Source of the DNA: Streptomyces lomondensis
GTDB taxonomy: Bacteria; Actinomycetota; Actinomycetes; Streptomycetales; Streptomycetaceae
DNA length: 64,000 nt
Direction of reading: 5' to 3'
Assembly (NCBI RefSeq): GCF_014651035.1
Contig: NZ_BMWC01000002.1
Span: forward strand, 186,001 to 250,000
The translations under genes and the position numbers were made by a program. Of the stretch, positions 16,447 to 37,215 are shown one piece after another (positions within the stretch are counted from its first letter, which is position 1; every line of letters begins with the position of its first letter). The notes beneath the pieces were generated by a model. The model ran no database searches. It saw only the letters and a list, made by a program, of their open reading frames with translations, and was not told the origin of the DNA.

Positions 16447-16944
16447 ATGGGTGACATGAACCGACCGGACACCAACCCCGACGGATCTCCGACCTTGCCT
16501 CCGAACTTCGCGAAATCCATCGGATTTCTGCTGAACAAGGCCGGGCAGCTGCTCACGGCGCAGTTCGAGAGCGAGCTCGCTCCGTACGGCCTCAGCGCGC
16601 GGAACTGGGGAGTCCTCCGGTTCATCGACGTCAACGGCAACCAGTCGCAGCAGTCCATCGGTGAGCAGTTGCGTATCGACCGGTCGACGATGGTGAACCT
16701 GGTCGACGAGCTGGAGCGGATGGGCTACGTCGTCAGGCTGCGCGACCCGCACGACCGCCGGCGCTACGCCGTGACGCTGACCGAGTACGGGCGGCGCCAG
16801 CTCCGCAGTGGCCTCGACTCGGTGGAGGACAAGGTGACGGACCGGTTCCTCGAACGCATCAGCGAACAGGACCGCGAGCGCTTGGTCTCGATCTTGATCT
16901 CATTGGTCGCACCTGACGGCATCACGCCGCCGGGCGCCGGCTGA
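16447..16944 (+). CDS. MarR-family transcriptional regulator
   Basis: 165 residues with a central winged helix (about 45-120): QSQQSIGEQLRIDRSTMVNLVDELER is the recognition helix and RDPHDRRRYAVTLTEYGRR the wing. MarR proteins are usually ligand-released repressors that sense aromatic compounds. It is the only transcription factor clearly associated with the polyketide cluster, so it is the first candidate for its cluster-specific regulator. A start at 16456 (second Met) is also possible. Confidence 0.93.
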   Translation: MGDMNRPDTNPDGSPTLPPNFAKSIGFLLNKAGQLLTAQFESELAPYGLSARNWGVLRFIDVNGNQSQQSIGEQLRIDRSTMVNLVDELERMGYVVRLRDPHDRRRYAVTLTEYGRRQLRSGLDSVEDKVTDRFLERISEQDRERLVSILISLVAPDGITPPGAG

Positions 16945-17139
16945 CGGACCGATCCGCGTCGGCACGCCCGACGCGGGCTCAGCCACCGGCGCCCGGGGTT
17001 GCGGCGAGCCAGTCAGGCAGGCCGCCGGCGCGGGAAAGCCCCGCCCATCGCACCGCCTCAAGCATCGACGGCGAGCGCAGCGATGTCGGTCCGCCGGGAC
17101 ACTTCGGACGGCGATGCGCGCACGGTGACGCACAGCGTG

Positions 17140-18471
17140 TCATCGCCTCGTCTCAGGCGGCTTCGGGCCCACGGGCCGGGCGAGCTTGGTGTGCTTCGGC
17201 TCCCCCATCCACTCCTCGGCCAGCTCGCGCAGATCCGCGTCGATCATCTGGCTCGGATAGGCCCAGCGCAGCAGCGGTGCGGTCATGGCCGTGGTGACGA
17301 GGGCCATGACCACCATCAGCGAGTACAGGTCCGTGTCGAGCAGCCCCAGTTGCAGGCCGATGCCAAGGATGATCAGTTCGGTGAGGCCGCGGGTGTTCAT
17401 GAGGATGCCCAGCGTCGTGGCCGATCGCCCGGACTGGCCGGCGACCCGTGCTCCGAGATAGGCGCCGCCGAACTTGCCGCCGATCGCCACGAGAAGGATC
17501 AGCCCCAGCTCGCCGAGTCCGTCGCCGCCCACCGTGGACAGGTCCACCTTCAGCCCTGCCACGGCGAAATACGCCGGCAGCAGCATCCAGGTGATCGTCG
17601 CAAACCGGTCCCTGATCGCCGCGCGCAGCCTCTCCGTGCCACGCCGTGGCACGATCGCGCCGGCGAGGAACGCACCGAAGATGAAGTGCAGTCCCAACCA
17701 CTCACTCAGCGCGCCGGAGACAAGCAGCAGCACCGTCAGCGCACCGAGCGCCCTGGTTCCGTTCCCGTGCTCCCCAGCCCCACGTTCGAGGTCTCCTCGG
17801 GCCCGCGCCGACGCGGCCAGGAGCCTGCCGAGCAACGGCCGTACCACCGCCACCATGGCCAGGGCGTACGGCACGACCAGCAGGACCTGCCAGGAGTTCT
17901 GGCTCCCGGTGAAGGTGAGCACGGCGGCGAGCAGGAGCCAGGCGGCGACGTCCCCGACGGCCGCACTCGCCATAGCCAGCGCGCCGATCCTGGTGTGCTG
18001 GATACCCCGGTCGGTGAGGATGCGGGCCAGTACCGGGAACGCGGTGATGGACATGGCCGCGCCGATGAACAGCAGGAAGCCGAGCCGGTGTCCGACCGGG
18101 TGGTCATTCCACAGGTGCAGCGCGAGCAGGACACCGAGTCCGAACGCGCAGACGATCGACCCGATGGACACCCCGGCCGTGGCACGCCCGTTCCCGCGCA
18201 GGAGCCGGTAGTCGAGTTCGAGGCCGACGAGGAACATGAAGAGCGCGACTCCGAGGTTGCCGAGCGTGGTGAGCATCGGCCGGATGTCCAGAGGTAAGAG
18301 CGTTTCGGACAGGGCGCCGTGGAACAGGGTCGGACCGAGCAGGATGCCGGCGAGGATCTCGCCGATGACCGCCGGCTGACCGCACCACCGCGCGAGGCGC
18401 CCGAGCACATGCGCGAGCGCGAGTATCGACGCCAAACCGACCATGATCATGGCTGTTTGGTGGGTGGTCAT
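17140..18471 (-). CDS. Cation:proton antiporter (CPA2 family)
   Basis: 443 residues and about 12-13 transmembrane helices of the Na+/H+ or K+/H+ exchanger domain (VIGEILAGILLGPTLF near residue 40; ILMNTRGLTELIILGIG near 365). Antiporters of this type often sit beside polyketide clusters and may serve pH/ion homeostasis or self-protection. ATG 18471 follows AAGGAGTG. Codon 59 is TTA (18295-18297), which suggests bldA-dependent translation. The C-terminal tail is basic and proline-rich. Confidence 0.92.
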   Translation of the reverse strand: MTTHQTAMIMVGLASILALAHVLGRLARWCGQPAVIGEILAGILLGPTLFHGALSETLLPLDIRPMLTTLGNLGVALFMFLVGLELDYRLLRGNGRATAGVSIGSIVCAFGLGVLLALHLWNDHPVGHRLGFLLFIGAAMSITAFPVLARILTDRGIQHTRIGALAMASAAVGDVAAWLLLAAVLTFTGSQNSWQVLLVVPYALAMVAVVRPLLGRLLAASARARGDLERGAGEHGNGTRALGALTVLLLVSGALSEWLGLHFIFGAFLAGAIVPRRGTERLRAAIRDRFATITWMLLPAYFAVAGLKVDLSTVGGDGLGELGLILLVAIGGKFGGAYLGARVAGQSGRSATTLGILMNTRGLTELIILGIGLQLGLLDTDLYSLMVVMALVTTAMTAPLLRWAYPSQMIDADLRELAEEWMGEPKHTKLARPVGPKPPETRR

Positions 18472-18788
18472 GGGCACTCCTTCTGCACAGGTGCCGTCCT
18501 TCGCGTGGGCGAGAAAAGAGCAGCTCCGGCAGCCGGGCACCGCGTCCTGGTCATCGGTCGAGTGCGGCGCGCGAAGAACGGAGAGTTTCTTGGCGAAGGA
18601 CAGCGCCGCGTGTTCCCCCGGCACGCGGCCTGCGCCCGGATGCGCCGTTCCTGACCCGCGGTGCGGATCTCACCACCTACCACCGAGTGCGGCGAACCGG
18701 GCCCGGTCGCGCGGGACGGCGCGGACGGGACTGTCCTCCCCGCACCGGCCCACGCCACCTGTGCGAGGCCGGTGCGGGAACGACCCGA
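18472..18788. other. Intergenic gap between antiporter and methyltransferase genes
   Basis: These 317 bases lie between two minus-strand genes. They hold the terminator of the biosynthetic operon (18739-18778) and presumably the antiporter promoter. No gene is supported in them. Confidence 0.5.
18739..18778 (-). terminator. Hairpin ending the biosynthetic operon
   Basis: A perfect 12-bp inverted repeat (arm CCCGCACCGGCC, 16-base loop) lies just past the stop of the methyltransferase gene, the last gene of the long minus-strand operon. Confidence 0.65.
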
Positions 18789-19448
18789 CTACCGCTTGTG
18801 TGCGACGAGCAGCAGCGCCGGGACCAGTACCCGGCCCTTCTCATCGGTCCCGAGAGCCGCCTCGCTGAGTTCCGGGGCCAGCCGCGCCGAAATGGTGGAC
18901 GCCTCCAGCCGGTCGATCGCCCAGTCCTTCTCCACGAGCGTCCCCAGTTCGTCGGCGCTGAAGAGGGTCGGCCCCTTCGGCATCACCGACCGCGCGTCCC
19001 GGGAGAAGGTGAGGATCGAGAGCGTCGCGTCGTCGGTGGTGGATCGGGCGAGGCACGCCAGGTAGTCCGCACGCTTGTCGTCCGAGATGGCCGGTATCGT
19101 CCCCGAGTCGACGACCGCGCGGAAGCGCCGCTCGTAGCCCTGCAGCGTGGTCAGGTCGGCCACGTCGAACGTGACCGGAAGGTCGTGGTCCGCCGCCGCT
19201 TGTTTCGCAGTCGCGATGGCCGACGGCGCCGAGTCGAGCCCGACGACCGTGTACCCCCGCCGGGCCAGGAACAGGCTCGTGTCCCCGATGCCGCAGCCGG
19301 CGTCCAGGACATCGCTGCGGAACACCCCCTGCGGCTCGAGCTCGGCGAGCTTGGGCTGGGGCTCCCCGATGTTCCACGGCACCCAGGGCACGTTCTGTGC
19401 GGACTCCCGGCCCTGGTAGACGGCGTCGAAGTTGGTCTTGTGCTGCAT
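18789..19448 (-). CDS. Class I SAM-dependent methyltransferase
   Basis: 219 residues of the small TehB/TPMT-like Rossmann methyltransferase type: SAM motif I is VLDAGCGIGDTSLFLARRG (about 47-65) followed by the acidic VGLDSAPSA. It probably methylates an O, N or S of the polyketide. ATG 19448 follows ACAGGAGAATC. It is the last gene of the operon, 58 bases after the FAD oxidoreductase. Confidence 0.9.
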   Translation of the reverse strand: MQHKTNFDAVYQGRESAQNVPWVPWNIGEPQPKLAELEPQGVFRSDVLDAGCGIGDTSLFLARRGYTVVGLDSAPSAIATAKQAAADHDLPVTFDVADLTTLQGYERRFRAVVDSGTIPAISDDKRADYLACLARSTTDDATLSILTFSRDARSVMPKGPTLFSADELGTLVEKDWAIDRLEASTISARLAPELSEAALGTDEKGRVLVPALLLVAHKR

Positions 19449-19506
19449 GACGGATTCTCCTGTCGGTTGTCGGCGCGAGTCGCCTCGGACGTGGGTGGGG
19501 CGTCGA

Positions 19507-21069
19507 TCAGCTCGGTCGGAGCACCGGGCCCGGGTCGATGCCGAGGTCGGCGAGGATCGCCTGGACCCCGGCGCGTGCTCCGCAGTTCGCCCCGCCGCCC
19601 GGGTGGGTCGACGGTCCGACGAGGAAGAAACCGTCGGCCGGCAGCCGGTACCCCATGTTCGGCATCGGCCGGTTCCCCAGGTACTGGTGGATCTGCTGCC
19701 CGAGGTGGCTCGCATCGCCGCTGGGCCAGGACGCGTTGAACCGGGCCGCGTCGAGCGGTGACTCGATGCTGCGGGACAGAACCTTCGTCGAGTCCATATT
19801 CGTGGTCAGCTCGCAGAACGTCTTGAAGATCTCGTCAAAGATCTCTTCCTTGCGGTCGTCCCAGCTCTGCCCGTCCAACTCCATGGGGGCGTACCCGAGG
19901 AGGTACAGGGTGTGCCGGCCGTCGGGGGCACGTGTCGGGTCCCAGACGCTCGCGACGACGGCGCTCGGCATGCCGACCGCCGGCGTGCCGTACTTCAGCC
20001 CGTCGAACGCCTGGCGCAGCTCCGGAAGCGGCAGCGCGAACTCCTGGATCCCGGCGCGGGTCACCTCCTCGCCGGCGGCGAACACCGGAGCCTCGCTCAG
20101 CGCGAGGTGGCCGACCAGACAGCTGAAGGCGGTCCGTTTGCCGCGCAAGGCCTTCGCGTCCCACTCGCGTCCGAACCTGTGGTCGACCATCGCCGGGATC
20201 TGGCTGATGTTGAGGTCCGCCACGACGGCCCGGGCCGCGGTGACCTCCTTGCCCGTGTCCAACCGCACGCCGGTCACCCGCTCGCCGTCGAACAGGAAGC
20301 GGTCCACCGGGACGCCGGTGCGGATCGTCCCGCCCAGGTCGACGAAGGCCCTGGCCAGAACCGAGGAGAGGGCGCCGGACCCACCGACCGGGAACCCCAC
20401 GCCGTGACGGTGCAACGTCGGCACCATCGCCAGCAGGAACGCGCCCGTGCCGCCCTCCTCCGGAGCGCAGATGAGCTCGGACACCCACCGCGCGAGCGCG
20501 GCCTTGATCTTCGGGTGTTCGAACCACTCGTCGATGACGTCGAGGTAGCTCATCATCAGCAGGCGCGTCATCTCCCGCCCGGCCTCCGTCCGGCCCAGCA
20601 GGGCGAAGAACTCGCCCATCGGCAGCGGTGGCGAGAACATCGCGTCGACCAGCATGTCCAGCAGGCTGTCGGCGAACTTGTGGAAGCGCAGGTAGTTCTC
20701 CGCGTCGGCGGGCGAGATCGTGGCGATGGTCTCCGCGGTCCGGGCGGGGTCCCGGTAGAACGCGATGTGGTCGCCGTCCGGGAAGGCCACGGCGATGGCC
20801 GGGTCCGGGAAGACGTACTCGAGTCCGTACCGCGAGCGCAGGCCCAGTTCGTCGTCCCGGATCAGCGGGTTGAGCTGCACGAACACATGGGCGATGGCGT
20901 GCAGGTCGTGCTTGAACCCGGGCAGGGTGACCTCCTTGGTCACCACCCCTCCGCCGACCTCGTCGGTCGCCTCCAGCACGACGACGTCGAGCCCGGCCTT
21001 GGCCAGGTAGGCACCGGCCGTCAGCCCGTTGTGGCCGCCGCCGACGACGATCACATCATGGTCTGGCAT
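19507..21069 (-). CDS. FAD-dependent oxidoreductase of the phytoene-desaturase (CrtI/PYROXD2) type
   Basis: 520 residues. The N-terminal dinucleotide fold VIVVGGGHNGLTAGAYLAKA (about 6-25) binds FAD and the C-terminal THPGGGANCGARAGV (about 490-505) completes the flavin site, as in CrtI-like desaturases and PYROXD2-type enzymes. In the cluster it could dehydrogenate a ring or an amine side chain. ATG 21069 follows AAGGAGCG. It lies 178 bases after the aminotransferase fusion gene, a gap longer than the others in the operon. Confidence 0.9.
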   Translation of the reverse strand: MPDHDVIVVGGGHNGLTAGAYLAKAGLDVVVLEATDEVGGGVVTKEVTLPGFKHDLHAIAHVFVQLNPLIRDDELGLRSRYGLEYVFPDPAIAVAFPDGDHIAFYRDPARTAETIATISPADAENYLRFHKFADSLLDMLVDAMFSPPLPMGEFFALLGRTEAGREMTRLLMMSYLDVIDEWFEHPKIKAALARWVSELICAPEEGGTGAFLLAMVPTLHRHGVGFPVGGSGALSSVLARAFVDLGGTIRTGVPVDRFLFDGERVTGVRLDTGKEVTAARAVVADLNISQIPAMVDHRFGREWDAKALRGKRTAFSCLVGHLALSEAPVFAAGEEVTRAGIQEFALPLPELRQAFDGLKYGTPAVGMPSAVVASVWDPTRAPDGRHTLYLLGYAPMELDGQSWDDRKEEIFDEIFKTFCELTTNMDSTKVLSRSIESPLDAARFNASWPSGDASHLGQQIHQYLGNRPMPNMGYRLPADGFFLVGPSTHPGGGANCGARAGVQAILADLGIDPGPVLRPS

Positions 21070-21247
21070 CGATCGCTCCTTCTCGAGTGGGGTCGTTCCG
21101 GCCGGACCGACGGGATCCCGGTCCAGCAGCGCGGGGTTCGACATCTCCGGCGACGAGCGGGGACGGCGTCGGCATCCCGGCGGCCGGCCGCGCAGGCCAC
21201 CGCCGAACGCGGGCGCAACGGCGGAACCGCGTGTTCGTCGGACATAC

Positions 21248-23248
21248 CTAGTGCTGTGGCTGTTTCGGGTCCGCCCCGACGCTTGCGGCGGCGACCATCG
21301 CGGCGCAGATCTGGGCGATGTCATCGTCCGTGCAGAGGTAGGGCGGCAGGCAGTAGATCAGGTTCCGGAAGGGACGCAGCCACACGCCTTCGCTGATTGC
21401 CGCGTCGGCCGTCCGCGGGTCGACGGGGTGGTCGAGTTCGATCACCCCGATGGCGCCGAGAACCCGGACGTCGGCGACACCGTCGACATTGACTGCCGCC
21501 CGCAGTCCCTGGCGAAGCGCCCTCTCGATCCGGGTCACGTCACTCCGCCAGTCGCCGGCGGCGAGCAGACCCAACGAGGCGTTGGCCACGGCCGCCGTCA
21601 GCGGGTTGCCCATGAAGGTCTGGCTGTGCGCCAGCACCGGCGGATCCCCCTGGCGGATCCCGGCCGCGACGCGCGGCGTGCACAGCGTCGCGGCCATGGA
21701 CATGTAGCCGCCGGTGAGCGCTTTGCCGAGGCACATCACGTCGGGCGTGACGCCGACGTGGTCGGCGGCGAACATGGCACCGGTGTGGCCGAATCCGGTG
21801 GCCATCTCGTCGAAGACCAGAAGCACGTCGTGCTCGTCGGCAAGGTCGCGGAGCACCCGCAGGTATCCGGGATCGTGGAAGCGCATCCCCCCGGCGCTCT
21901 GCACGACCGGTTCCACGATGATTGCCGCCAGCTCGTCGGCATGCTCCGCGATGGCCCGCGCCATGGTGTCGACATAGGCCGAGTCGAGCTGCTCGTTGTC
22001 GGTCCCTGCCGGGTCGGTGGCGTTCAGCAGGCTCGTGGACGACGACGCGGGCGGCGCCGGAAGGAATACCTGCTCGGGCAGGAGGCCCCGCCACGACGCG
22101 TGCCTCCCGTCGTCCGGGTCGCACACGCTCATCGCGTGGAAAGTAGCGCCGTGGTACCCACGGCGCCAGGTCAGTATCCGTCGTTTCTCGCTGCGGCCTG
22201 ACGCACTCCAGTACTGGAGGCACATCTTCAGCGCGACCTCGACCGACACCGCCCCGGAGTCGCAGAAGAACACGTGCTCCAGGCCGTCAGGCGTCAGCTC
22301 CACCAGCGTCCTCGCGAGCCGGATCGCCGGCTCGTGGGTCAGGCCACCGAACATCACGTGCGCGAATCGACTCGCCTGATCGGCCAGTGCCTTGTCCAGC
22401 ACCGGGTTGCGGTAGCCATGGATGGCAGCCCAGAACGACGACATCCCGTCGATGAGTTCCCGGCCGTCGGCGAGTGTCAGCCGGACACCTTCAGCTCCGG
22501 CGACCAGCAGCGGTTCGTCCACGCCCGGCATGGGGCGCAAGGGATGCCACACGTGGGCGCGGTCCAGGGCGAGCAGGTCGGCGGAGTCCGTTCCCGCGGC
22601 CCGGCTCGCGTGAGTCCTGGCGTCGCCCGGAGTCGCCCACCGTTGGGTGTCCCGGCCGAGCCAGGCCATCATCCGCGTGGTGTCCTCGGCTCCGGCCGCC
22701 GGCGGCAGCGCCTCACCGATCCGCCCTGGACCGCGCAGCGCCGCCTCCGGTACCTGCGCGCAGGTGTGCGCGATGTGGGCGAGCAGGGTGTCTGGCAGCC
22801 GGATCTGCCGGCCGGTCGCGGCCGCGATGTCCCAGGCGTGTACGGCGACATCCGCGACCGGGAACGCCAGCGCCCTGGCCAGGTTCTGGCGCCCGGTCGG
22901 CGTGTCGACCTTCAGATCCGGATCGGCCGCGGAGACGGCCGTGCGCGCCGCCGCCGCCGCGTCCCGCCACGCCGTCGCCGGATCAACCGCGGCCGCATCA
23001 CCGGGCTGTGACGGCGCGGGGGGCGTGGGCTCGCCACGCGCGATCAGGACGATCTTGCCCAGGGTGCCGATCACGTGTCCCACGACGTCCCGGACGGACC
23101 AGTCGGAGCACGGGGACTCGGTGTCCCATGCGTCGTCCGGAACTCCCGTCAGCGTCGCGTCGAACAGACTCACCGCCTCTGCGAGTGCCGTGACGATGTC
23201 TGGCGGCGCACCGGTCCGGACGGGCGCGGAAGCTGCGGCGTTGCTCAT
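21248..23248 (-). CDS. DinB-like (TIGR03086) domain fused to BioA-type PLP aminotransferase
   Basis: 666 residues. Residues 1-215 match the mycothiol-dependent maleylpyruvate isomerase/DinB-like class ([28 protein letters not shown] with metal-site His and Asp). Residues 222-660 match adenosylmethionine:8-amino-7-oxononanoate aminotransferase (BioA): [35 protein letters not shown] (Asp480), CLGKALTGG (PLP Lys509) and [13 protein letters not shown]. The BioA substrate Tyr in the WHPY motif is Leu (WHPL) and the Asp in GYHGDT is Ala, so a different amino acceptor than in biotin synthesis is likely. It may aminate a polyketide carbonyl. ATG 23248 follows AAGGAG. No stop or frame change lies between the domains. 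Confidence 0.9.
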
Positions 23249-23321
23249 GGATTCGACTCCTTCTCGTGGTGCGCAACCCTTACGTGGCGTCATACGAATC
23301 GGGCGGCCCGGGGCCGGGCCG

Positions 23322-24089
23322 TCACCGGTCGGACTCGACGAACCTGCCGGTCACCGCCACGACCCGGGTCCACCCGGCCCCGGCGTTCGCCACCGGTATC
23401 GGGAAGCACATGACGGTGAATCCCGTCGGACCGGGCAGCCGGTCGAGGTTGGCCAGCTTCTCCAGCTGCAGGTACTCGCGCTCCCGCCCATACACGTGCG
23501 CCGGCCAGAGCGTTCGCGGGTCCCCGTTGCGCCGGTAGTCCGCGATCATGCTCGCCATCGGCCGGTCCAGCCCCCACGCGTCGATGCCGATCACCCGGAC
23601 GCCCCGCTCCACCAGGAACCGCGTGGCGCCACCCGACAGGCCGGGATAGGTGGTCAGGTACTCGCTGCTTCCCCACAACCGGTCGGCGCCGGTCCACAGC
23701 AGCACGATGTCCCCGTCGCCGAGCGTGTGTTCGGCGACGCCCAGTGCCTCGGTCACATCGTCCTCGCTGATCTCCTCACCGGCTCCGACGTGTCGCAGAT
23801 CGAGCCGGACACCCGGACCGATGCACCACTCCAGGGGAACCTTGTCGATGCTCCGGGCCGGTTTGCCGCCACTGAGCGGGCCGTAGTGCAACGGCGCGTC
23901 CATGTGGGTCCCTGTGTGCGTCGTCAGCGTGATCGTCTCGTTCGAAATGGCGATGCCGTCCGGGAAGTCGGACGGGCTCAGTCCGAGGACCTTCGGCCCC
24001 TCCTCGTGCGTGAGGGTGTCGATGTGCACCGGAGTCGCTTCGCTCGCGGCCGGGCCGGTCGGCACGCTGAGGTCGATCAACGTGGCCAT
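23322..24089 (-). CDS. HxGTHxD cyclase-family protein (kynurenine-formamidase-like fold)
   Basis: 255 residues with the metal-binding signature [11 protein letters not shown] (58-68). The family includes formamidases and the aromatic-polyketide ring cyclases related to OxyN. In this setting a late ring-closing role is most likely. The ATG at 24089 overlaps the aromatase stop (TGATG), and a GTG one codon earlier is also usable, so the two are coupled. Downstream of it lies the aminotransferase fusion after 73 bases. Confidence 0.88.
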
Positions 24090-24586
24090 CACACGACCCT
24101 CTTGGCCTTCGCGGCACGGCGCTCCGCCTCGTCGCGGACGGCGGCCAGATGCGCCGTACTGTTGCGCTCGATGGCCCCGGCGAGCATCTCGTGGGCCTCG
24201 GCATGGGTGTACTGGCCGGCCACCTTTCCGTCCGCCCCCTCCGCGCGGGCGGCGAAGTCATGGGTCAGCACGATCTGGGTGCGGTCCGGTCCGTACGGCA
24301 GCGCCCGCCATTCCCCGCTCATGTGTTCCACGATCGGCGCGGTCTCCAGCTGGCGGTAAGCGACGACGCCCAGTTCCGGGTCCAGGTCGCGGCGGGTGGT
24401 CCACGCCTGGAGCTGCCCGCTGACGTCCACCTCGAGCCGTGCGATCTCGTAGCCGTCCCCTCGCTCTGTGATGACGGCGGACTTGGTGGCCTCGAAGAGG
24501 TTCGGGTAGTTCTCGATGTCGGCCAGCACCTCCCAGACGACACTCTGCGGCGCCTGCGCGGTCACGGTGTGCTCGGTGTGCTCCAT
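24089..24586 (-). CDS. Polyketide aromatase/cyclase (SRPBCC, single domain)
   Basis: 165 residues of the START/SRPBCC helix-grip fold used by TcmN/WhiE-type aromatase/cyclases: an N-terminal VVWEVLADIENYPNLF, a central DLDPELGVVAYRQL strand and a C-terminal long helix (about 135-160). It should catalyse first-ring cyclisation and aromatisation of the nascent poly-beta-ketone on the ACP. It follows the ACP gene after 29 bases. Confidence 0.92.
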   Translation of the reverse strand: MEHTEHTVTAQAPQSVVWEVLADIENYPNLFEATKSAVITERGDGYEIARLEVDVSGQLQAWTTRRDLDPELGVVAYRQLETAPIVEHMSGEWRALPYGPDRTQIVLTHDFAARAEGADGKVAGQYTHAEAHEMLAGAIERNSTAHLAAVRDEAERRAAKAKRVV

Positions 24587-24615
24587 GGGGCTCCCTCGTG
24601 AGATGTTCGGCTCGT

Positions 24616-24846
24616 TCAGGCCAGGTTTTCCAGGAAGGCGACCAGGTCGGCGACGGTCTCCACGGACTTCAGCGCCTTTCCGTCCGCCTTGCCCGGGGCG
24701 AGCTGGTTGACGATCTCGACGAGCTCGGCCGAGTCCACACCCAGGTCGCCGCGGAGCACAGCCCCGCTGGTGATCTCCGACGGCTCCAGGCCGACCTCGA
24801 CAAGGACGTCGAACACCTGGTCGTATGTGCTCTTGGTGGTGGCCAT
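24616..24846 (-). CDS. Type II PKS acyl carrier protein
   Basis: 76 residues, the usual length. The phosphopantetheine site is DLGVDSAELVEI with Ser39. It carries malonyl units and the growing chain for KS-alpha/CLF. ATG 24846 begins MATTKSTYDQVFDVL, preceded by GAAGAAGGTG. No phosphopantetheinyl transferase is encoded nearby, so one from elsewhere in the genome must activate it. Confidence 0.95.
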   Translation of the reverse strand: MATTKSTYDQVFDVLVEVGLEPSEITSGAVLRGDLGVDSAELVEIVNQLAPGKADGKALKSVETVADLVAFLENLA

Positions 24847-27340: not shown

Positions 27341-28350
27341 GACACAGCCCCACGCGTAGCGGCCACGAGCGTGCCCGGCCCGGTCGGCGACCGTAGCTGT
27401 CGGCGGACCGGCAGGCCCGCCTCGGCGAGCCACTGGCCGTAGTCGTCGAGGCTGTGTGCCGAGCCCTCACTCGTCATCAGCATCTGGAGGGAGAAGAACG
27501 CGCCGACGGGATCGGTCTCCGTGTCGTCCGGGACGATCTCGTAGAGCAGCAGCACGCCGTCGTCCGCCAGCGCCGCCGCGGACAGCCGCAGAATCTCGCG
27601 CACCTGCGCGGGCGGGTACCCGTGCAGCAGATTGCCCAGCAGCACCACGTCGTAGGGCCCGCCCCAGGGCTCGGTGAACAGGTCCCCGGACCGGTACTCG
27701 GCCCGGTCCCCCAACCCCGCGTCACGGGCGAGCCTACGGGCCTCGGACACCGAGATCTCCCGGTCGATGCCGACGACCGTGCCACCCCAGCTCTCCGTCA
27801 GAGCGCGGCCGGTGCCGCCGTACCCGCACCCCACGTCGAGGATCCGGGGCCGGGGCCGGACCAGGCCCTCGACGGCGCCGGCGATCCATCGCCCGGCGCC
27901 CACCCCGAGTGCGTCCAGATAGGGCGTGATCTTGCCCCAGACATCGTCCGCCCGGTCGGCGAAGATCTCCTTGCACGGAATGCCGCTGCGCACCGCTTCG
28001 GTGAGCTGGGGCCAGATCCGGTAGTTCAGCTCCCGGTGGATGTGCCGCATGTCCCCGAGGTAGGCACGCGAGCCGCGGACCAGGTACGTCGCGACGTCGT
28101 CGGCCAGTCGGTAGCGGTCGCCCTCGCGATGCACGAACTCCGACGCGTGCAGCGCGGTGAGCAGCGCGTGCAGGCCCCGCCTGCTCGCACCGGTGCGGCG
28201 GCCCAGATCCTCCAGCGTGTCGTTGCCCTCGGCGATGGCCGTGAAGACGTCCAGGTCGAGCGCCGTGACCAGGGTGGCCGTACGCCCCAGCCCCCAGGCG
28301 AAATCGTGGATACGGGCTGGTGTGGGTGTGGTGACGGACTGCTCAGACAA
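27337..28350 (-). CDS. O-methyltransferase (dimerising polyketide/caffeate type)
   Basis: 337 residues. The N-terminal winged dimerisation domain (about 10-100; TLEDLGRRTGASRRGLHALL) precedes a Rossmann SAM domain with ILDVGCGYGGTGRAL (about 170) and YDVVLLGNLLHGYPPAQV (usual form LHDW). Such enzymes methylate phenolic hydroxyls of aromatic polyketides. The acidic partner that normally follows the LH pair is absent (LHGY), which may alter the catalytic mechanism or site. It overlaps the SDR stop by eight bases and KS-alpha by four. Confidence 0.92.
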   Translation of the reverse strand: MSEQSVTTPTPARIHDFAWGLGRTATLVTALDLDVFTAIAEGNDTLEDLGRRTGASRRGLHALLTALHASEFVHREGDRYRLADDVATYLVRGSRAYLGDMRHIHRELNYRIWPQLTEAVRSGIPCKEIFADRADDVWGKITPYLDALGVGAGRWIAGAVEGLVRPRPRILDVGCGYGGTGRALTESWGGTVVGIDREISVSEARRLARDAGLGDRAEYRSGDLFTEPWGGPYDVVLLGNLLHGYPPAQVREILRLSAAALADDGVLLLYEIVPDDTETDPVGAFFSLQMLMTSEGSAHSLDDYGQWLAEAGLPVRRQLRSPTGPGTLVAATRGAVS

Positions 28351-29086
28351 GGCTCAGCCCTCCGTCCACGACGAGCGTGGCGCCGGTTACGTAGGAGGAC
28401 GCGTCGGACACGAGGAAGCGGGCGACGTCCGCGACCTCGTGCGCGGTGCCGAGTCGGCGCAGCGGAATGCGTCCCCGCTCCGCCTCGGCCTGCTCCTCGT
28501 GTCCCCGCACCAGCTTCCGGGACATCGGGGTGTCGATGAATCCCGGGATGATCGTGTTGACCCGGATCCCCGCCGGACCGTAGGCGACGGCGAGATCCCG
28601 GGTGTGCGCGACGATCCCGGCCTTGGCCGCGGTGTACGGCGCCCGGGACGGGCTCGGCTTGAGCCCGCCCGCGATGCTTGAGCAGGTCACGATCGATCCG
28701 CCCGCGGACATCGAGGGCAGTACCGCGCGGCACACGCCCGTGGTCCCTCGTAGGTTGACGTCGAGCACCCTCGTCCACAGCTCGTCGTCGAGCTCGGCCG
28801 GTGGTCCCCAGTTGTCGACGACGGCGGCGAACGTCAGGCACGCGTGGATCCGGCCGGCCCGCGCGACGACCTCGGAGACCGCGTCGCGCACCGCGTCGGA
28901 GTCGGCCACGTCGAGATGGCGGACGCCGAGAAGGGTGGTCTCCTCGGCGAGGGACTTCAGGCCCACGTCGTCCACGTCGAGGGCCATCACCGACGCTCCG
29001 GCGTCCGCGAGAACGCGGGCGGTCGCCCGGCCGATCCCGGATGCGGCGCCGGTGACGAGGCAGACCCTGTCTGTTAAGACTGTCAT
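28343..29086 (-). CDS. Short-chain dehydrogenase/reductase
   Basis: 247 residues of the classical FabG-like SDR: NAD(P) motif TGAASGIGRA (about 12-21), catalytic Ser in CSSIAG and YTAAK (Tyr/Lys). It may be a polyketide ketoreductase or a tailoring reductase; there is no other candidate KR in the cluster. Codon 4 is TTA (29075-29077), an early position, so a lack of charged leu-tRNA(UUA) should hit it strongly. Start ATG 29086 overlaps the Dabb stop (ATGA). Confidence 0.92.
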   Translation of the reverse strand: MTVLTDRVCLVTGAASGIGRATARVLADAGASVMALDVDDVGLKSLAEETTLLGVRHLDVADSDAVRDAVSEVVARAGRIHACLTFAAVVDNWGPPAELDDELWTRVLDVNLRGTTGVCRAVLPSMSAGGSIVTCSSIAGGLKPSPSRAPYTAAKAGIVAHTRDLAVAYGPAGIRVNTIIPGFIDTPMSRKLVRGHEEQAEAERGRIPLRRLGTAHEVADVARFLVSDASSYVTGATLVVDGGLSLV

Positions 29087-29412
29087 GTTCGTATTTCCTG
29101 TTCGTCTGCGGTGTTGGCGAAAGCGACGCCGATGCCGAGACGGCGGACCCAGACGTCCACCACGTCGCTCATGGCGGGGTGCACGGAGAAGGCGCGCAAC
29201 TGCTCGAGATCGGTGAACTCCCACCGTGCGGCCACCGAGTACAGCGACTCGGTCGCCGCGTCGTCGGCCGGCAGCGGGACGTGCCGACCCGCCGTGAACC
29301 GTTCGACCACGCCCGTCCTCCGGGTGGCCTCGGCGAGCTCGTCGCGGAACCGGGCCCGATCCGTCTCGGACATCGATTCCGGATATCGGTAGAGGACGAC
29401 ATGCGCGATCAT
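29083..29412 (-). CDS. Dabb-domain (stress-responsive A/B barrel) protein, possible TcmI-like cyclase
   Basis: 109 residues forming one ferredoxin-like alpha/beta barrel: HVVLYRYPESM at the start, FTAGRHVPLP and LRAFSVHPAMSDVVDVW at the end. In type II PKS clusters, small dimeric barrels of this kind act as later-ring cyclases or anthrone-type oxygenases. It is sandwiched between overlapping genes (ATGA on both sides), so its stoichiometry is coupled to the amidohydrolase and SDR. Confidence 0.82.
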   Translation of the reverse strand: MIAHVVLYRYPESMSETDRARFRDELAEATRRTGVVERFTAGRHVPLPADDAATESLYSVAARWEFTDLEQLRAFSVHPAMSDVVDVWVRRLGIGVAFANTADEQEIRT

Positions 29413-30482
29413 GCTGCTCCCTTGTCGCGGACGGTCAGCGGCTCACCCAGCCCGAGTAACGCCCGGGCGTTGCCGGATTCGATGGCGTGGAGCGTCGCCG
29501 TCGGGAGTGAGGCCCCCCGCAGCACCTCCAGCGCGCCGGCGCGCCCGAGCTCGCCGGGCGTCACCGGGAAGTCGCTGCCGAACAGGATCCGCTCCTCCCC
29601 GAGCGCCTCGAGGGCGCACCGCAGCCCGGTGGCGTCGGCGGAGTGCGTGTCCGCGTAGATGTTGCCGGCGTAGTCGCGCAGGTGGCGCAACGCGCCGGAG
29701 GCCCGCGCGGCGTCAGCGTCCGCACCGGCGAGGAGCCGGTGGATCAGGTCGAACCGGCCGAGCGCGATCGGCAGCACACCACCGAGCTGGCCGAACACCA
29801 GCCGCAGCCCGGAGTGCTGCTCGAGCCTGCCACTCAGCACCAGGCGGGTGATGCAGAGGGTCGTCTCGACCAGCATGGACAGGGCGCCGGTCAGCAGATG
29901 TTCGGCGCGTCCGGGCAGCGGCGGCTCGGACCCGAGGTGGAACTTCGCCGAGGGATGGACGAACAGGACGACGCCGCTCGCCTCGGCGGCGGCCAGCACC
30001 GGGGCGAACGCCGGGTCGTCGAGGAACCGCAGCCGGCCGGTCGAGGGCTCCAGGTAAGCGCTGTTCATCGAGATCGCGGGGATGCCTCCGTCCGTGGCCG
30101 CCCGCTCGATCTCGGTCTCGGCCGAGTCGACGAACCGGGGGTCCACCCAACGCGCGGCCTGCAGACGCCCACCGGTCCGCGTGGCCCACGCCCGCATCTC
30201 GTCGTTGACCGTGGCGATGGTGTCGGCCGGCCCTCGCCGCCGCTCGCCGCGCAGTGCGGCCGCGTGCAGCGCTGCCACGGCGTTCGAGCTGTGCGTCAGT
30301 ACGGTGGTCTCGATCCCGTGCAGATCGGCGTCGGCCACCTGCCGCTCCGGGCCGTCGAACGCCGGGGACGACCAGAGCCCCGGGGGCCCTTCGGCCGTCG
30401 AACCCGACTCGGCGAGCCACTCCAGGAACGCCGACTGGACCCACGGTGGTAACCCGTGCGCGTGCGCGTCGACGACCGTCAT
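29409..30482 (-). CDS. Amidohydrolase-2 (ACMSD-like) family protein
   Basis: 357 residues of the TIM-barrel amidohydrolase family that includes ACMSD and salicylate/resorcylate decarboxylases. Metal ligands are visible: HAH (His7, His9), LFVHPSAKFH (His176) and FGSDFP (Asp304). The segment equivalent to the catalytic HGGG/HLGG is FGQLGG, so the usual His is Gln. It could decarboxylate a phenolic acid intermediate, but the missing His makes this uncertain. Codons 11 and 342 are TTA. ATG 30482 overlaps the halogenase stop (ATGA). Confidence 0.85.
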   Translation of the reverse strand: MTVVDAHAHGLPPWVQSAFLEWLAESGSTAEGPPGLWSSPAFDGPERQVADADLHGIETTVLTHSSNAVAALHAAALRGERRRGPADTIATVNDEMRAWATRTGGRLQAARWVDPRFVDSAETEIERAATDGGIPAISMNSAYLEPSTGRLRFLDDPAFAPVLAAAEASGVVLFVHPSAKFHLGSEPPLPGRAEHLLTGALSMLVETTLCITRLVLSGRLEQHSGLRLVFGQLGGVLPIALGRFDLIHRLLAGADADAARASGALRHLRDYAGNIYADTHSADATGLRCALEALGEERILFGSDFPVTPGELGRAGALEVLRGASLPTATLHAIESGNARALLGLGEPLTVRDKGAA

Positions 30483-31780
30483 CGTTTCACTGTCTCGACG
30501 TGGGCCCACGGCATGCCCATGTTGCGGCTCGTGGCCAGGCGGCCCTCCGCGACGCCGTCCGGTGCCGCGTCGTGGTGCGGCTGCATCACGGCCAGCTCGG
30601 CGTTGAGGCCGGAGACCATGATGATGAAGTCGTCCCGGGCGGTCATCCGGCCGATCGGGTCGATCAGATCCTTCGCCTTGGCCCAGTACGCCTCGACGTC
30701 CTTGCTGGCGTCGTAGAAGAAGCGCACGAAGGACAGCACGGTGCCGAGGAAGTCGCGCAGGCCCTCGTCGTAGGCCTGCGCGAACTCGTCCTCGCGGGCA
30801 GGCTCGTGCAGCATCGCGGAGATGGTGGCCGCGGCCGAGCTGGCGCCCTTCATCGCGAGCGTGACCCCGGTGGAGAACAGCGGGTCGATGAAGGCCGCGG
30901 CGTCGCCGACCATCAGGTAGCCGGGTCCGTAGAACCGGGAGCAGGTGTAGGACCAGTCCTTCGCCGTGCGGCATCCCGCCACCTGGGTGGCGTCCCGCAG
31001 CAGCTGCTTGGCCTCGCGCGACGTGGCGATCTTGCTTTCGAGCAGCTCCAGATTCGGCCGTGTGTCCTCGGCGATCTGGTCGTTCGGGCCTACGAATCCC
31101 ACGCTCTGGGTGCCGTCGGACAGCGGGATGACCCAGAGCCAGCCGTCCGGGTGGTTCTCGACGAGGATGTTGCCGGACAGCTCGTCCGGAAGCCGCCGGC
31201 CACCCTGGTAGTAGGTCCACACGGCCAGGTTCTTCAGGTCGTCGTGCATTTCGACCAGCCCGAACTCCCGGCCGAGAATCTTGGCCTGGCCGGAGGCGTC
31301 GACGATGTAGCGGGCCTCCGCCCGGATCGGCTCCGTCCCGCGGCCGACCGTGTACGTCACGCCGGTGGCCCGGCCATCGCTGGTCAGTACCTCGCGCACC
31401 GACGCATGCTCGACGACCATGGCTCCGAGCTTGCGTGCGTGCTCAAGTAATATGAGGTCGAAATCAGCGCGCTTGACCTGCCACGTGTAGTCGTAGGGGC
31501 CGCTCTCCCCGAACGCGATGCTCCACAGCTTGCCCTCGGCTCCCCAGAGCAGCGAGATACCCGCCTTGCGGGTGAAACCGGCGGCATCGACGGCGTCCCG
31601 GACGCCGAGCTCGTCGATGACGGTGTTCAGGCCAGGTATGAGCGACTCACCTATGTGGTAGCGGGGGAACTGTTCCTTCTCCAGGACCAGCACGTCGTGC
31701 CCGGCCTTGGCCAACAGTCCGGCCGTGGTGGCTCCGGAGGGGCCTCCACCGATGACGATGGCGTCGTAAGTACGGGTCAT
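30479..31780 (-). CDS. FAD-dependent halogenase (phenolic, tryptophan-halogenase-like family)
   Basis: 433 residues. The FAD fold GGGPSGATTAGLLA (11-24) leads. The halogenase marks are WLWVIP (214-219, WxWxIP motif), the FIDPLFSTG region (Fx.Px.SxG) and a Lys72 in RKAGISLLWG that aligns with the catalytic Lys carrying the hypohalous species. It should chlorinate or brominate an electron-rich ring, using FADH2 from a separate reductase not encoded here. The family also contains hydroxylases, so biochemical proof is needed. Codon 111 is TTA (31448-31450). It follows the malonyltransferase after 42 bases. Confidence 0.87.
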   Translation of the reverse strand: MTRTYDAIVIGGGPSGATTAGLLAKAGHDVLVLEKEQFPRYHIGESLIPGLNTVIDELGVRDAVDAAGFTRKAGISLLWGAEGKLWSIAFGESGPYDYTWQVKRADFDLILLEHARKLGAMVVEHASVREVLTSDGRATGVTYTVGRGTEPIRAEARYIVDASGQAKILGREFGLVEMHDDLKNLAVWTYYQGGRRLPDELSGNILVENHPDGWLWVIPLSDGTQSVGFVGPNDQIAEDTRPNLELLESKIATSREAKQLLRDATQVAGCRTAKDWSYTCSRFYGPGYLMVGDAAAFIDPLFSTGVTLAMKGASSAAATISAMLHEPAREDEFAQAYDEGLRDFLGTVLSFVRFFYDASKDVEAYWAKAKDLIDPIGRMTARDDFIIMVSGLNAELAVMQPHHDAAPDGVAEGRLATSRNMGMPWAHVETVKR

Positions 31781-31822
31781 GTCGGACGTCTCCTTCTGTT
31801 CCGTGGAACTTCCGGTCGTGTC

Positions 31823-32776
31823 TCAGCCGCGCGTGCCGGTGAGGGCACGCAGGTGGGTCGTGTCGCCGCAGGGATGGATCTCCTGTCCGCGATCGACCTT
31901 GCGGATCAAGCTGCGCAATGTGGTTCCGGGGCCGACCTCGACGATCCGGCTCGGCCGGTGGGCGACGATCCGACGGGCCGTCCGCGTCCAGTGCACGGGT
32001 GCGGTGATCTGGTGGGCCAGGACGTCGCGGTAGCGCTCGAGGTCGGTGACCAGCTCGCCGGTGACGCTGCTGATCATCGGCGTGTGACCACGGCGCAGCG
32101 GCAGGGCGGCGATCGTGGCCCTGAGCTCGTCCTCGGCGGGCCGCATGAGCGGCGAGTGGAACGCGCCTGCTACGGGCAGGGGCCGAGAGACGGCGATCGA
32201 CTCCGCACGGATCGCCTCCCTGATCTCCTCGACGGTCGCGGCGTCGCCGGAGATGACGGTCTGCCGAGGAGAGTTGTAGTTGGCGATGACGGCGGTGCCC
32301 GGGCGCCCGTCGTCGCGTCGCCCGGGGTGCTGCGCCAGGACCCGGGCGACCTCGTCCGAGTCGATGCCCAGCACCGCCGCCATCGCACCGGGCCGCTCCT
32401 GGCAGCAGCGGGCCATGGCGTGAGCGCGCCGCACCACGGTCGCGGCGGCCTCGTCCAGATCGAGCCAGCCGCCGGCGACGAGGGCGGTGAACTCGCCGAG
32501 GCTGTGACCCGCGACCAGCTGGGGTACGACGCCTTCCTCGGTGAGGGCCCGGGTCATTGCGACACCGAAGGTGAACAGGACGAGCTGGGCCGTCCCCGTC
32601 TCGCGTAGCCGGTCCTCCGGACCGTGCACCATCGGCTCGATCACAGGACGACCCGTGACGGCCTCGACGTGCTCGAACACCTCTGTCATCCGAGGCCGGT
32701 CGTGCATCAGGTCGGCCCCCATCCCGACGACCTGACTCCCCTGGCCGGGATAGACGAATGCGGTCTGGATCGACAT
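31823..32776 (-). CDS. Acyl-carrier-protein S-malonyltransferase (cluster-encoded)
   Basis: 317 residues of the FabD fold: GQGSQ (11-15), nucleophile GHSLG (Ser92) and GAFHS (204-208), the form linked to malonyl rather than methylmalonyl substrates. Most type II PKSs borrow FabD from fatty-acid synthesis, so a dedicated copy is notable. It is the first gene of the operon, about 30 bases downstream of a strong promoter-like element. It may load malonyl or a special starter on the ACP. Confidence 0.94.
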   Translation of the reverse strand: MSIQTAFVYPGQGSQVVGMGADLMHDRPRMTEVFEHVEAVTGRPVIEPMVHGPEDRLRETGTAQLVLFTFGVAMTRALTEEGVVPQLVAGHSLGEFTALVAGGWLDLDEAAATVVRRAHAMARCCQERPGAMAAVLGIDSDEVARVLAQHPGRRDDGRPGTAVIANYNSPRQTVISGDAATVEEIREAIRAESIAVSRPLPVAGAFHSPLMRPAEDELRATIAALPLRRGHTPMISSVTGELVTDLERYRDVLAHQITAPVHWTRTARRIVAHRPSRIVEVGPGTTLRSLIRKVDRGQEIHPCGDTTHLRALTGTRG

Positions 32777-32813
32777 CTGAGTTCTCCCCCGTTAACTCCT
32801 GATGCGTCGATCA

Positions 32814-32842
32814 TCTTTACAGATTATCTTTTATCCTGTCAA
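32814..32842 (-). promoter_or_regulatory. Promoter of the biosynthetic operon (TTGACA-N17-TAAAGA)
   Basis: On the minus strand a perfect -35 TTGACA (32842-32837), a 17-base spacer and TAAAGA (32819-32814) give a near-consensus vegetative promoter. The malonyltransferase ATG lies 38 bases beyond the -10 box. No other equally good promoter was seen further into the operon. Confidence 0.7.
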
Positions 32843-32850
32843 TAGGCATT

Positions 32851-32863
32851 ACTGATGATCAGT
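32851..32863. promoter_or_regulatory. Inverted repeat next to the operon promoter
   Basis: ACTGATGATCAGT is a perfect 6+1+6 inverted repeat eight bases upstream of the -35 box of the operon promoter. It shares the ATCAGT half-site with the repeat in the divergent P450 promoter. It could bind the MarR protein or another regulator; this is an inference. Confidence 0.5.
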
Positions 32864-33173
32864 GGCAGATACGATTGAGCCAGCCCGCCGCCGCCGCGGC
32901 GGCCGCCCCCGCGGGGAGCCGGCACCGGCGCGCCGGCCGGAGGCCTCGGACTGCCGGACGCCGCCTGACCTGGTCTTCCTGATGAACCCGACACCTGAAC
33001 GGACCGACCCGGTCCGGGATCGGAGCCTCGGACTCAGCCCGCTCGAGGACGATTTCCAGCCCGGGCCCGCGAGCTGCTGCACGCCGCCGGGGCGCTGCAC
33101 ACACCATCACCTTCCGCCGGATCCATCATCGCCATCCAAGATTGACAACAACGCAAATCATCAGTCATACTGA
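32862..33173 (+). pseudogene. Possible remnant of a TetR-type regulator
   Basis: The frame starts GTG 32862 and reads MADTIEPARRRRGGRPRGEP, a typical first segment of TetR regulators, but the expected helix-turn-helix does not follow. A stretch resembling the first TetR helix (ARELLHAAGALHT) appears in another frame near 33068. The start also lies inside the inverted repeat of the operon promoter. It may be a decayed regulator or a chance open frame; the reading is weak. Confidence 0.2.
33142..33173 (+). promoter_or_regulatory. P450 promoter (TTGACA-N18-CATACT) with overlapping inverted repeat
   Basis: TTGACA (33142-33147) and CATACT (33166-33171) are spaced by 18 bases. The -10 box lies within TCAGTCATACTGA (33161-33173), a perfect 5+3+5 inverted repeat, so a bound regulator would block the promoter. 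The leader to the P450 start would be about 230 bases. Confidence 0.55.
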
Positions 33174-33214
33174 CTAAGCGGCAATGCCGCGCCCCCGAGG
33201 TGTTCGGACGACGC

Positions 33215-33236
33215 AGGAGGGCCCGGTGTGACCTAG
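33215..33236 (+). other. Strong ribosome site followed by a start-stop microframe
   Basis: AGGAGG (33215-33220) is followed after five bases by GTG TGA, with a second option GTG ACC TAG two bases on. Either would be a one- or two-codon reading frame in the P450 leader. It could be a remnant of a lost gene or a small translational control element. Confidence 0.25.
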
Positions 33237-33408
33237 CCGCGCGACGCCAACGTCAAAGACCCGGCTGTACCGGTCGAGCGGACTTCATCGAGTTGCTCGC
33301 GGTCACCGGGGCGGGACGAGGGCTTGAGGGCGTTTCTCGATCCGTCGGAACTGAACCGCCACGTGGTGAGTACGTGATCGTGCGGCTTGGTTCACGAGTC
33401 ATGAGGAA

Positions 33409-34656: not shown

Positions 34657-34793
34657 TGTGACGCGCACGAAAAAGAACGCTCCAGCAGACACCGACAGCC
34701 ACCGAGAGACTCAAGACCGGGACTTCCGGCGCATCACACCAGACCACGGCGCGCGAAGTTCAGTCTGATCGCCACACAGGAACGAGGACAAGA

Positions 34794-36014
34794 GTGAATC
34801 CCACAGAGGTCAGTGAACCCGGACGGAAGGCTTCCGGCCAGTTCATGAAGCCCCTACTTCCCCTTGCCCTGGCCACCTTCGCGGTCGGCACCGACGCGTT
34901 CGTCATCGCCGGCCTGCTACCCGCCATTGCTGCCGATTTCGACGTCAGCATCGCGGCTGCCGGCCAGTTAGTGACAGCATTTGCCCTGACGTTCGCTGTT
35001 ACCGCACCGGTTCTTGGTTGGTTACTGAGCCCGCTGGACCGTCGCACAGCACTTCAGCTGGCACTGGTCGTGTTCACCGTGGGCAACGCGGTTACCGCGC
35101 TGAGTCCCAACTACGAACTGGCGTTGTTCTCCCGTGTCCTCACAGCTGTCGGGGCAGCCACCATTACGGCCACGGCTTCCAGCGCCGCGGTGGCGGTCAC
35201 GCCGGAGGAACGGCGAGGGCGTGCGATGGCGTTTGTCATCGGCGGACTCACCGTCTCCACAGCACTGGGTATGCCGTTCGGCAACATGATCGGCCATGTC
35301 GACTGGCGCCTTACGCTCTGGGCAGTGGCTGCTCTCGGAGTCATCGCAGCAATCGGGACATCGGTGGGTCTGCCCAAAATCACGCTGCCCGCCACGAGCC
35401 TCGGCGCGCGCCTGGCGCCGCTCCGTCAGCCCAGGATGATCGTCACCTTGTTGGCGACCCTGCTGGTGATGGGCGGACACTATATGGTCTACACCTACAT
35501 CGGAGCGGTGACGGCGGATGCCACCGCCGGGACGTTCACCCAGGCACTGACCCTGATTCTGCTGGCGTGGGGTATCGGCGCGGTGGTCGGCAATCTGCTC
35601 GCCGGTTACCTCGTGGACAGTCTTCCCACGATTCGCGTCGCGGTTGCGGCACTCGCTGCCGCGACAGTCCTGCTCGCCATCAGCCCTCTCGCGGTCAACA
35701 ACCTGGCCGTCGTCATCGTGTGGGCCGCAATCTGGGGCGTAACAGACGGAGCCCCATCAGTGATCCAACAATATCGGCTGGTCAGCTTTGCTCCCGCCTC
35801 AGCGCCAGTCCTGTTCGGCCTCAACTCCTCCGCAGTCTTCCTGGGCGTGGCTCTGGGCGGCGGACTCGGCGGCATCGCACAGGACTGGCTGCCGGTGACG
35901 TCGCTCGGTCTTCCCGCAGCCGTCCTGGCTCTGGTCGCCACCACGCTCACCGTCGTCCACGGGAAGAGGGCCAGGACGGAAACCTCGCCGGAAGCAGCAC
36001 CGGCCGGCCGATGA
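34794..36014 (+). CDS. MFS transporter (DHA1-type drug exporter)
   Basis: 406 residues with about 12 transmembrane helices and the motif A-like loop (LLSPLDRRTALQLA; GRAMAFVIGGLTVSTALGMPFG contains the motif C-like GPxxGG/PFG turn). It is probably the exporter and self-resistance pump for the cluster product. GTG 34794 follows AACGAGGAC. Codons 59 and 77 are TTA (34968-34970, 35022-35024), suggesting bldA dependence. Its third codon positions are visibly less GC-rich than in neighbouring core genes, a sign of transfer. Confidence 0.93.
   Translation: MNPTEVSEPGRKASGQFMKPLLPLALATFAVGTDAFVIAGLLPAIAADFDVSIAAAGQLVTAFALTFAVTAPVLGWLLSPLDRRTALQLALVVFTVGNAVTALSPNYELALFSRVLTAVGAATITATASSAAVAVTPEERRGRAMAFVIGGLTVSTALGMPFGNMIGHVDWRLTLWAVAALGVIAAIGTSVGLPKITLPATSLGARLAPLRQPRMIVTLLATLLVMGGHYMVYTYIGAVTADATAGTFTQALTLILLAWGIGAVVGNLLAGYLVDSLPTIRVAVAALAAATVLLAISPLAVNNLAVVIVWAAIWGVTDGAPSVIQQYRLVSFAPASAPVLFGLNSSAVFLGVALGGGLGGIAQDWLPVTSLGLPAAVLALVATTLTVVHGKRARTETSPEAAPAGR

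Positions 36015-36126: not shown

Positions 36127-37215
<1,089 letters not shown>

Follow-up and report, generated by a model that had tools for sequence, protein, structure and literature searches.

We describe a type II polyketide cluster in Streptomyces lomondensis (a genome of 8.78 Mb in 58 contigs) that is real, complete and rare, and apparently uncharacterised. It occupies approximately positions 16447–36014 of a 64-kb window (contig C2:186001–250000; positions below are those of the window) and comprises 18 genes (15 on the minus strand and three on the plus strand) together with a glyoxalase-like gene linked to them. The two strongest findings are a halogenating gene core that is common to two phyla, and an aminotransferase in which a remodelled copy of the biotin-synthesis enzyme BioA is fused to a second domain. 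A preliminary description of this DNA had listed most of the cluster; every gene that it named is present in its place, and the families were confirmed by our Pfam and NCBIfam scans, to which we add a CPA2 antiporter, the fused MDMPI_N domain and the glyoxalase-like gene.

Related loci were collected by using the chain length factor (CLF) as the single query against genome contigs; this search returned ten loci, every one of which was compared with the window. The full 18-gene cluster recurs, in the same order and at 81–95% protein identity, in Streptomyces sp. B-S-A8 (L002), in TRM68367 (L003) and in two further cluster-bearing genomes of the genus (G253 and G197); for the antiporter of L003 the best match spans just 109 of 494 residues. 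Because all 18 genes are collinear at this level of identity in four other loci, the gene set is not a chance grouping. Moreover, the window’s YchF and S8 protease genes were unmatched in the flanks that could be compared (332–1573 bases past the exporter gene at one end, 951 to ~3500 bases past the glyoxalase-like gene at the other), which points to a differing genomic context, at least in G253 and G197. Lying at 36127, beyond the cluster, YchF is a housekeeping gene.

Nine genes, all on the minus strand, make up the core, in the order FAD-dependent halogenase (30479–31780), amidohydrolase (29409–30482), dimeric alpha-beta barrel (Dabb) protein (29083–29412; Pfam 3.5e-6), short-chain dehydrogenase/reductase (SDR; 28343–29086; Pfam 2.2e-65), ketosynthase KS-alpha (26066–27343), CLF (24873–26069), acyl carrier protein (ACP; 24616–24846), ZhuI-like first-ring aromatase/cyclase (24089–24586) and a PF04199 cyclase (23322–24092; Pfam 7.1e-34). 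This last protein and the Dabb protein are the ‘two further cyclase-type proteins’ of the preliminary description. The core is collinear, at 45–63% identity, in Thermosporothrix hazakensis, a member of the Chloroflexota (L005), where it forms a compact locus (L005:5220–15160) with an antiporter nearby. In a Ktedonobacteraceae metagenome-assembled genome (MAG; L006) the order holds to the contig end, inside the CLF gene; in an actinobacterial MAG (L007) it holds from the contig start, inside the amidohydrolase gene, so that no halogenase is seen there. The SDR and Dabb genes are found in all three loci. No product of the T. hazakensis cluster was found in the literature searched; for nine strains of Ktedonobacteria, 11 type II polyketide clusters have been counted, with no product named in the available part of that report (PMC6497799).

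The remaining genes are distributed differently. An O-methyltransferase (OMT) gene (27337–28350, minus strand; Pfam Dimerisation and Methyltransf_2) lies between the SDR and KS genes in all five full clusters, which is not so in L005–L007. In the stretches of L005–L007 that were compared, there is no match to the aminotransferase fusion, a CrtI-like oxidase, either of the two methyltransferases, the P450 or the MFS exporter; in the compared stretch of a sister cluster in Streptomyces sp. LHD-70 (L004), matches are likewise missing for the fusion, the CrtI-like oxidase and the small methyltransferase. The malonyl transferase (MAT) has a 43% match in L007, and antiporter homologues lie near the KS and CLF genes of L004 (38%) and L005 (41%). 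The amidohydrolase had been regarded as an unusual extra; since it belongs to the gene block common to Chloroflexota, we place it in the core instead. The aminotransferase, the CrtI-like oxidase and the small methyltransferase lie outside that cross-phylum core and are thus additions to it.

The cluster is rare. Orthologues of the amidohydrolase (E ≤ 1e-60) occur in at least three of 392 genomes of the genus (that of S. lomondensis included), in at least two of 251 Chloroflexota genomes (the L005 genome and G585) and, among 394 genomes drawn from the class, in at least one, which is S. lomondensis itself. The MDMPI domain has relatives (E ≤ 1e-25) in at least four of 295 genomes of the genus: three carriers of the cluster and G231, whose relative is 34% identical and contains one internal stop. 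All of these counts are lower bounds, because few candidates were scored per genome (five, up to eight and five in the genus, Chloroflexota and class searches for the amidohydrolase, ten in the MDMPI search and six in the CLF search). Among the matches listed from the 295 genus genomes, the best CLF other than the cluster’s three copies is 43% identical. Many Streptomyces clusters have no known product.

The fusion itself (21248–23293, minus strand; 681 residues) joins an MDMPI_N (mycothiol-enzyme-like) domain to a class III aminotransferase of the BioA type, both recognised by Pfam, and its open reading frame is uninterrupted in all five clusters. The aminotransferase half passes the BioA model TIGR00508 with 525.4 bits against a cut-off of 405. 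A second and stronger BioA match in the same genome lies on contig C4, directly beside bioB, and is 62% identical to the cluster enzyme; with a bioA of its own beside bioB on another contig, a plain biotin enzyme was rejected as the identity of the cluster gene. We aligned the five cluster copies with 19 housekeeping BioAs from 19 genomes (21 genomes were searched). Five positions that are invariant in all 19 housekeeping enzymes are altered in all five cluster copies: WHPY becomes WHPL or WHPF, the first Trp of M-WW becomes Phe, GYHGD becomes GYHGA, GFGR becomes GFGH, and HGPTF becomes H-QTF. From studies of the E. coli and M. tuberculosis enzymes, we take these five positions to lie at the substrate pocket. 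The pyridoxal phosphate (PLP) Lys and the anchor Arg (of RPF) are retained. In a tree of 32 rows, the cluster copies form one clade (100/100) on a branch of 0.49, and this clade sits inside an 18-row group (96/96) with 13 bioAs, of which 11 belong to the genus and the other two to a different family of the order; these 13 group together at 87/88, and there are long branches at the outgroup of the tree. Judged from the alignment and the tree, the cluster gene is a duplicated, fused and remodelled BioA. The BioA-type label of the preliminary description therefore stands at the level of the family model, while the remodelled pocket and the fused MDMPI_N domain make this aminotransferase stranger than was first stated.

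Two other roles for the gene have to be considered. It could be a self-resistance copy, a tolerant duplicate of a BioA that the product of the cluster inhibits: duplicate-target resistance is a known pattern, BioA models are passed above their cut-off, and a second bioA-like gene does stand alongside the housekeeping one. However, alteration of five invariant positions in five of five copies is more than tolerance with a kept function should need, and the extra fused domain also speaks against it; we consider self-resistance very improbable. Alternatively, the enzyme might provide an amino-acid-derived starter, or another building block, in place of tailoring the ring system. The kept anchor Arg would suit such a role, and the CLF, which lacks the decarboxylation Gln (see below), may point to unusual priming. 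Yet the 21-kb stretch of L005 contains no aminotransferase match even though its CLF motif is of the same type, and no KSIII or CoA ligase family was found by Pfam among the scanned cluster proteins, so that we view a starter role as unlikely. We favour a tailoring function on the ring system. In its most far-reaching form, the fusion would be a new bifunctional tailoring enzyme derived from a duplicated biotin gene. It would combine mycothiol-dependent chemistry with transamination on a chlorinated aromatic polyketide, and would form a nitrogen (or sulfur) heterocycle without precedent on a core scaffold exchanged between Chloroflexota and Streptomyces; we offer this version as a speculation that is rather unlikely.

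Within the core, the amidohydrolase (Pfam Amidohydro_2, 3.2e-22) has as its closest solved relatives aromatic and uracil-5-carboxylate decarboxylases and ACMSD. Residues H7, H9, H176 and D304 (HxH, H, D), which presumably are the metal ligands of an ACMSD-type amidohydrolase, are invariant in the five orthologues. In contrast, residue 232 is Gln in all five orthologues, against a His in five aligned decarboxylase chains from the PDB (three of them human ACMSD), and we take this His to be the catalytic active-site His of ACMSD-type decarboxylases. The ‘ACMSD-like’ assignment made earlier thus holds for the metal ligands and stops there: by its active-site residues, the cluster protein is not a regular ACMSD, and it may act either in decarboxylation or in a thioesterase-like release. 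The second of these options is a specific alternative, namely that the protein frees the chain as an acyl-ACP thioesterase or hydrolase, in the manner of PtmU3, for which a thioesterase role is known. It would account for kept metal ligands in combination with Gln at the decarboxylase His, the scanned cluster proteins include no thioesterase family (Pfam), and PtmU3 (6omp) is itself a match, albeit a weak one (E 5.5e-6). On the other side, aromatic decarboxylases and ACMSD come first in the sequence searches and also in a fold search, where TM-scores are ~0.5–0.6 with a weak AlphaFold model that was used for fold class only. We regard chain release in place of decarboxylation as a serious possibility, though less likely than not.

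The halogenase (Pfam Trp_halogenase, 3.5e-40) is closest among solved structures to 8zop (416.5 bits), then to 3e1t and CmlS. It carries GGGPSG, WLWVIP and FIDPLFSTG, corresponding to GxGxxG, WxWxIP and FxDPxxSxG, the motifs of FAD-dependent halogenases. L002–L006, G197 and G253 all share the WxWxIP motif and a KxGIxLxWG segment, neither of which occurs in the more distant FAD proteins of L009–L011; FxDPxxSxG, which the orthologous halogenases likewise retain, turns up in L010 and L011 too, and is not specific on its own. Together, motifs and family indicate that this is probably a chlorinating FAD-dependent halogenase. As a separate observation, two contigs labelled as Chlamydiae MAGs (L009:6406–11158 and L011:6797–11119) hold KS, CLF and PF04199 cyclase genes and so resemble type II polyketide synthase loci; each also carries a remote (27–28%) protein of the FAD halogenase fold, and misbinning of these contigs is possible.

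The synthase itself appears intact. KS-alpha, identified by Pfam and with the actinorhodin KS (1tqy_A) as its best solved relative, retains the catalytic Cys (TGCTGGN). The adjacent KS-like partner, the CLF (also a Pfam match), reads DSAS where FabF-like enzymes carry Cys, and thus lacks the active Cys. The ACP is the weakest family call (PF00550, 20.4 bits, just short of the 20.8 cut-off, E 6.3e-4); it is backed by the position of its gene and by its DSxEL motif, which is kept in eight aligned rows and in which the phosphopantetheine Ser is that of VDSAEL. The aromatase is closest to 3tfz, which we take to be ZhuI (E 1.2e-57, 197.6 bits; the next best is BexL, 6.3e-18), and would close the first ring, most likely at C7–C12. 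The PF04199 protein, a candidate second-ring cyclase, presumably resembles ZhuJ.

Other genes would supply modification, export and control. On the minus strand are the FabD-like MAT (31823–32776; Pfam Acyl_transf_1, 5e-39), a CrtI/CrtO-like FAD oxidoreductase (19507–21069; Pfam Amino_oxidase; NCBIfam CrtO 3.9e-72, far under its cut-off), a Na+/H+ antiporter of the CPA2 family (17140–18624; PF00999, 9.5e-49) and a small S-adenosylmethionine-dependent methyltransferase (18789–19448; Pfam Methyltransf_25). The last is closest to Rv0560c (PDB 7bgg, E 8.3e-36), a protein named as a methyltransferase of heterocyclic toxins or 2-heptyl-1-hydroxyquinolin-4(1H)-one; this likeness fits, without proving, methylation of a nitrogen heterocycle. 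On the plus strand are a MarR-family regulator (16447–16944; Pfam MarR_2, 1e-14), a cytochrome P450 (33409–34656; Pfam 3.3e-30) and an MFS exporter (34794–36014; Pfam 2.6e-40) that resembles Cmx/CmrA, with the NCBIfam model for these below its cut-off. With the gene starts chosen in this analysis, four-base overlaps of stop and start at 30479/30482, 29409/29412, 29083/29086 and 26066/26069 suggest that the 15 genes of the minus strand form an operon with translational coupling.

A short element, GATTGACA, lies upstream of the MarR gene (16179–16186, minus strand) and again between the MAT and P450 genes (33140–33147, plus strand); both places were also viewed in alignments of five and three rows. 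Its count is not significant (two matches in 64 kb against 0.68 expected, and two or more in 17 of 100 shuffles). We keep it only as a candidate regulator site, because each of the five clusters carries it in both of these positions. A second candidate site is the palindrome CCACTATGAATAGTGG (window 16100–16250), likewise upstream of the MarR gene; it is a palindrome in L002, L003 and G253, and imperfect in the window and in G197. Also on this side of the cluster is the linked gene for a protein of the glyoxalase/bleomycin-resistance fold (15497–15865, minus strand; Pfam Glyoxalase_6). It adjoins the MarR gene in all four other full clusters (L002, L003, G253 and G197), and might serve in resistance or tailoring.

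From the observed gene set, gene order, conservation and active-site residues, we infer the following reactions, with regulation by the MarR protein. MAT, ACP, KS and CLF would assemble a poly-beta-ketone from malonyl units. By their family roles, closure of the first ring, most likely C7–C12, would fall to the ZhuI-like aromatase and closure of the second to the PF04199 cyclase, and the Dabb protein would assist or police the last ring closure. The amidohydrolase-fold protein would remove the end carboxylate, or release the chain, by metal-based chemistry without the usual His. Chlorination of the phenolic ring system would be due to the halogenase, and reduction of a ketone to the SDR; this chlorinated, reduced scaffold would be the ancestral product common to Chloroflexota. 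In Streptomyces, the P450 and the CrtI-like oxidase would then install a carbonyl or quinone, the fusion would convert a carbonyl to an amine, perhaps with closure to an N-heterocycle, and both methyltransferases would cap oxygen or nitrogen, with the MFS protein and the antiporter serving in export or protection. The halogenase motifs, the 3tfz-like aromatase and the intact KS and ACP sites uphold the halogenated, methylated aromatic product that the preliminary description had predicted. The product is most likely a chlorinated, methylated polycyclic polyketide with late amination and perhaps N-heterocycle closure. As an account of the whole, a complete type II polyketide cluster with its own MarR regulator and this pathway is the explanation that we hold with moderate confidence.

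Several points weigh against it. Its expression, chemistry and product are all predicted. Action of the aminotransferase on the polyketide is a proposal, as is use of mycothiol by the MDMPI domain. The halogenase fold includes monooxygenases too (the QhpG model scores 178 bits, under its cut-off), and confidence in the model of the amidohydrolase is low (mean pLDDT 57.4, pTM 0.64). Canonical actinomycete aromatic CLFs have Gln at the former Cys site, whereas this CLF has Ser, with Ser or Thr in L002–L007, G197 and G253 (DTAS in L004–L007; DRAS in the Laceyella sacchari locus L008), and it is about equally close to FabF (173.9 bits) and to the actinorhodin CLF (162.1 bits). Because the Gln is missing and the best other CLF among those listed from the 295 genus genomes is 43% identical (55% in L004), neither chain length nor folding can be transferred from known systems; nor is likeness to 3tfz a proof of C7–C12 regiochemistry. 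Furthermore, this cluster is not alone in having the OMT and the P450, which sister cluster L004 has as well (OMT 44%; P450 56% over 162 of 415 residues).

It is also conceivable that the product is a chlorinated polyketide already described, in MIBiG or in other papers. The closest solved halogenase, 8zop, comes from a study that we did not find in the literature searched. Against this, no named product with this gene set emerged among the matches listed from the literature searched, a search that did not extend to MIBiG. We take the company of DMAC and aloesaponarin II as a mark of a reduced octaketide route, which is unlike this gene set. In the part of the report available, oryzanthrones and chlororyzanthrone B were isolated alongside these two compounds (PMC10608293), and the oryzanthrone/chlororyzanthrone cluster is, by an excerpt of a second report, MIBiG BGC0002656 (PMC12795557); a cluster of this type was set aside on that company, that is, on the compounds described. 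A formicamycin-like cluster was set aside as well: the cyclases of the for cluster, as far as the accessible text describes it, are TcmN, TcmI, cupin and ABM proteins, and it lacks an aminotransferase gene (PMC6689052); our cluster is different. We judge an already described product to be rather unlikely.

If the pathway is right, it provides a route, open to test, to an aromatic polyketide that is both chlorinated and aminated, and a vitamin-biosynthesis transaminase will have been recruited and rebuilt for secondary metabolism. It would also define a halogenating type II core across two phyla, whose product would be obtainable from the compact Thermosporothrix locus and could be compared with the elaborated Streptomyces product.

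Among known systems, R1128 (zhu) is comparable at the aromatase step, on which the comparison rests: both have a monodomain aromatase, ours being closest to 3tfz, and a PF04199 cyclase is present here. Unlike R1128, our cluster has no KSIII or extra priming acyltransferase family among the proteins scanned with Pfam, and it adds the halogenase, amidohydrolase, Dabb protein and aminotransferase. The Laceyella sacchari locus, which we take to be that of thermorubin, unites KS (42%), CLF (34%) and PF04199 cyclase (45%) matches, and its CLF is also without Cys and Gln; nothing in it matches the halogenase, the amidohydrolase, the Dabb protein or the aromatase, and the amidohydrolase has no match in its genome either. 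Closer in order are the Ktedonobacteria clusters L005 and L006, with the same core at 38–63% identity; to the differences given above it can be added that their compared stretches have no MAT match. In L004, KS (74%), cyclase (72%), halogenase (57%), CLF (55%), MarR (48%), MAT (47%) and OMT (44%) are all related, whereas the 21 kb compared contain no Dabb, SDR, ZhuI-like aromatase, fusion or amidohydrolase match, and the genome only remote amidohydrolases (best E 2.2e-14); L004:1–19062 has genes of its own for a phosphopantetheinyl transferase, another SRPBCC protein and LuxR-type proteins. The type II rishirilide (rsl) cluster, likened by gene description only, also contains a MarR gene, together with an antibiotic-biosynthesis-monooxygenase protein and rslH, named as an amidohydrolase and dispensable, with no halogenase or aminotransferase named in the part of the paper available (PMC7221717); because that text cites a D-stereospecific amidohydrolase for rslH, the latter may belong to another family. 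Finally, set beside BioA (DAPA synthase), the cluster enzyme shares the PLP Lys and anchor Arg, and departs from it in five pocket positions and in its fusion to MDMPI_N.

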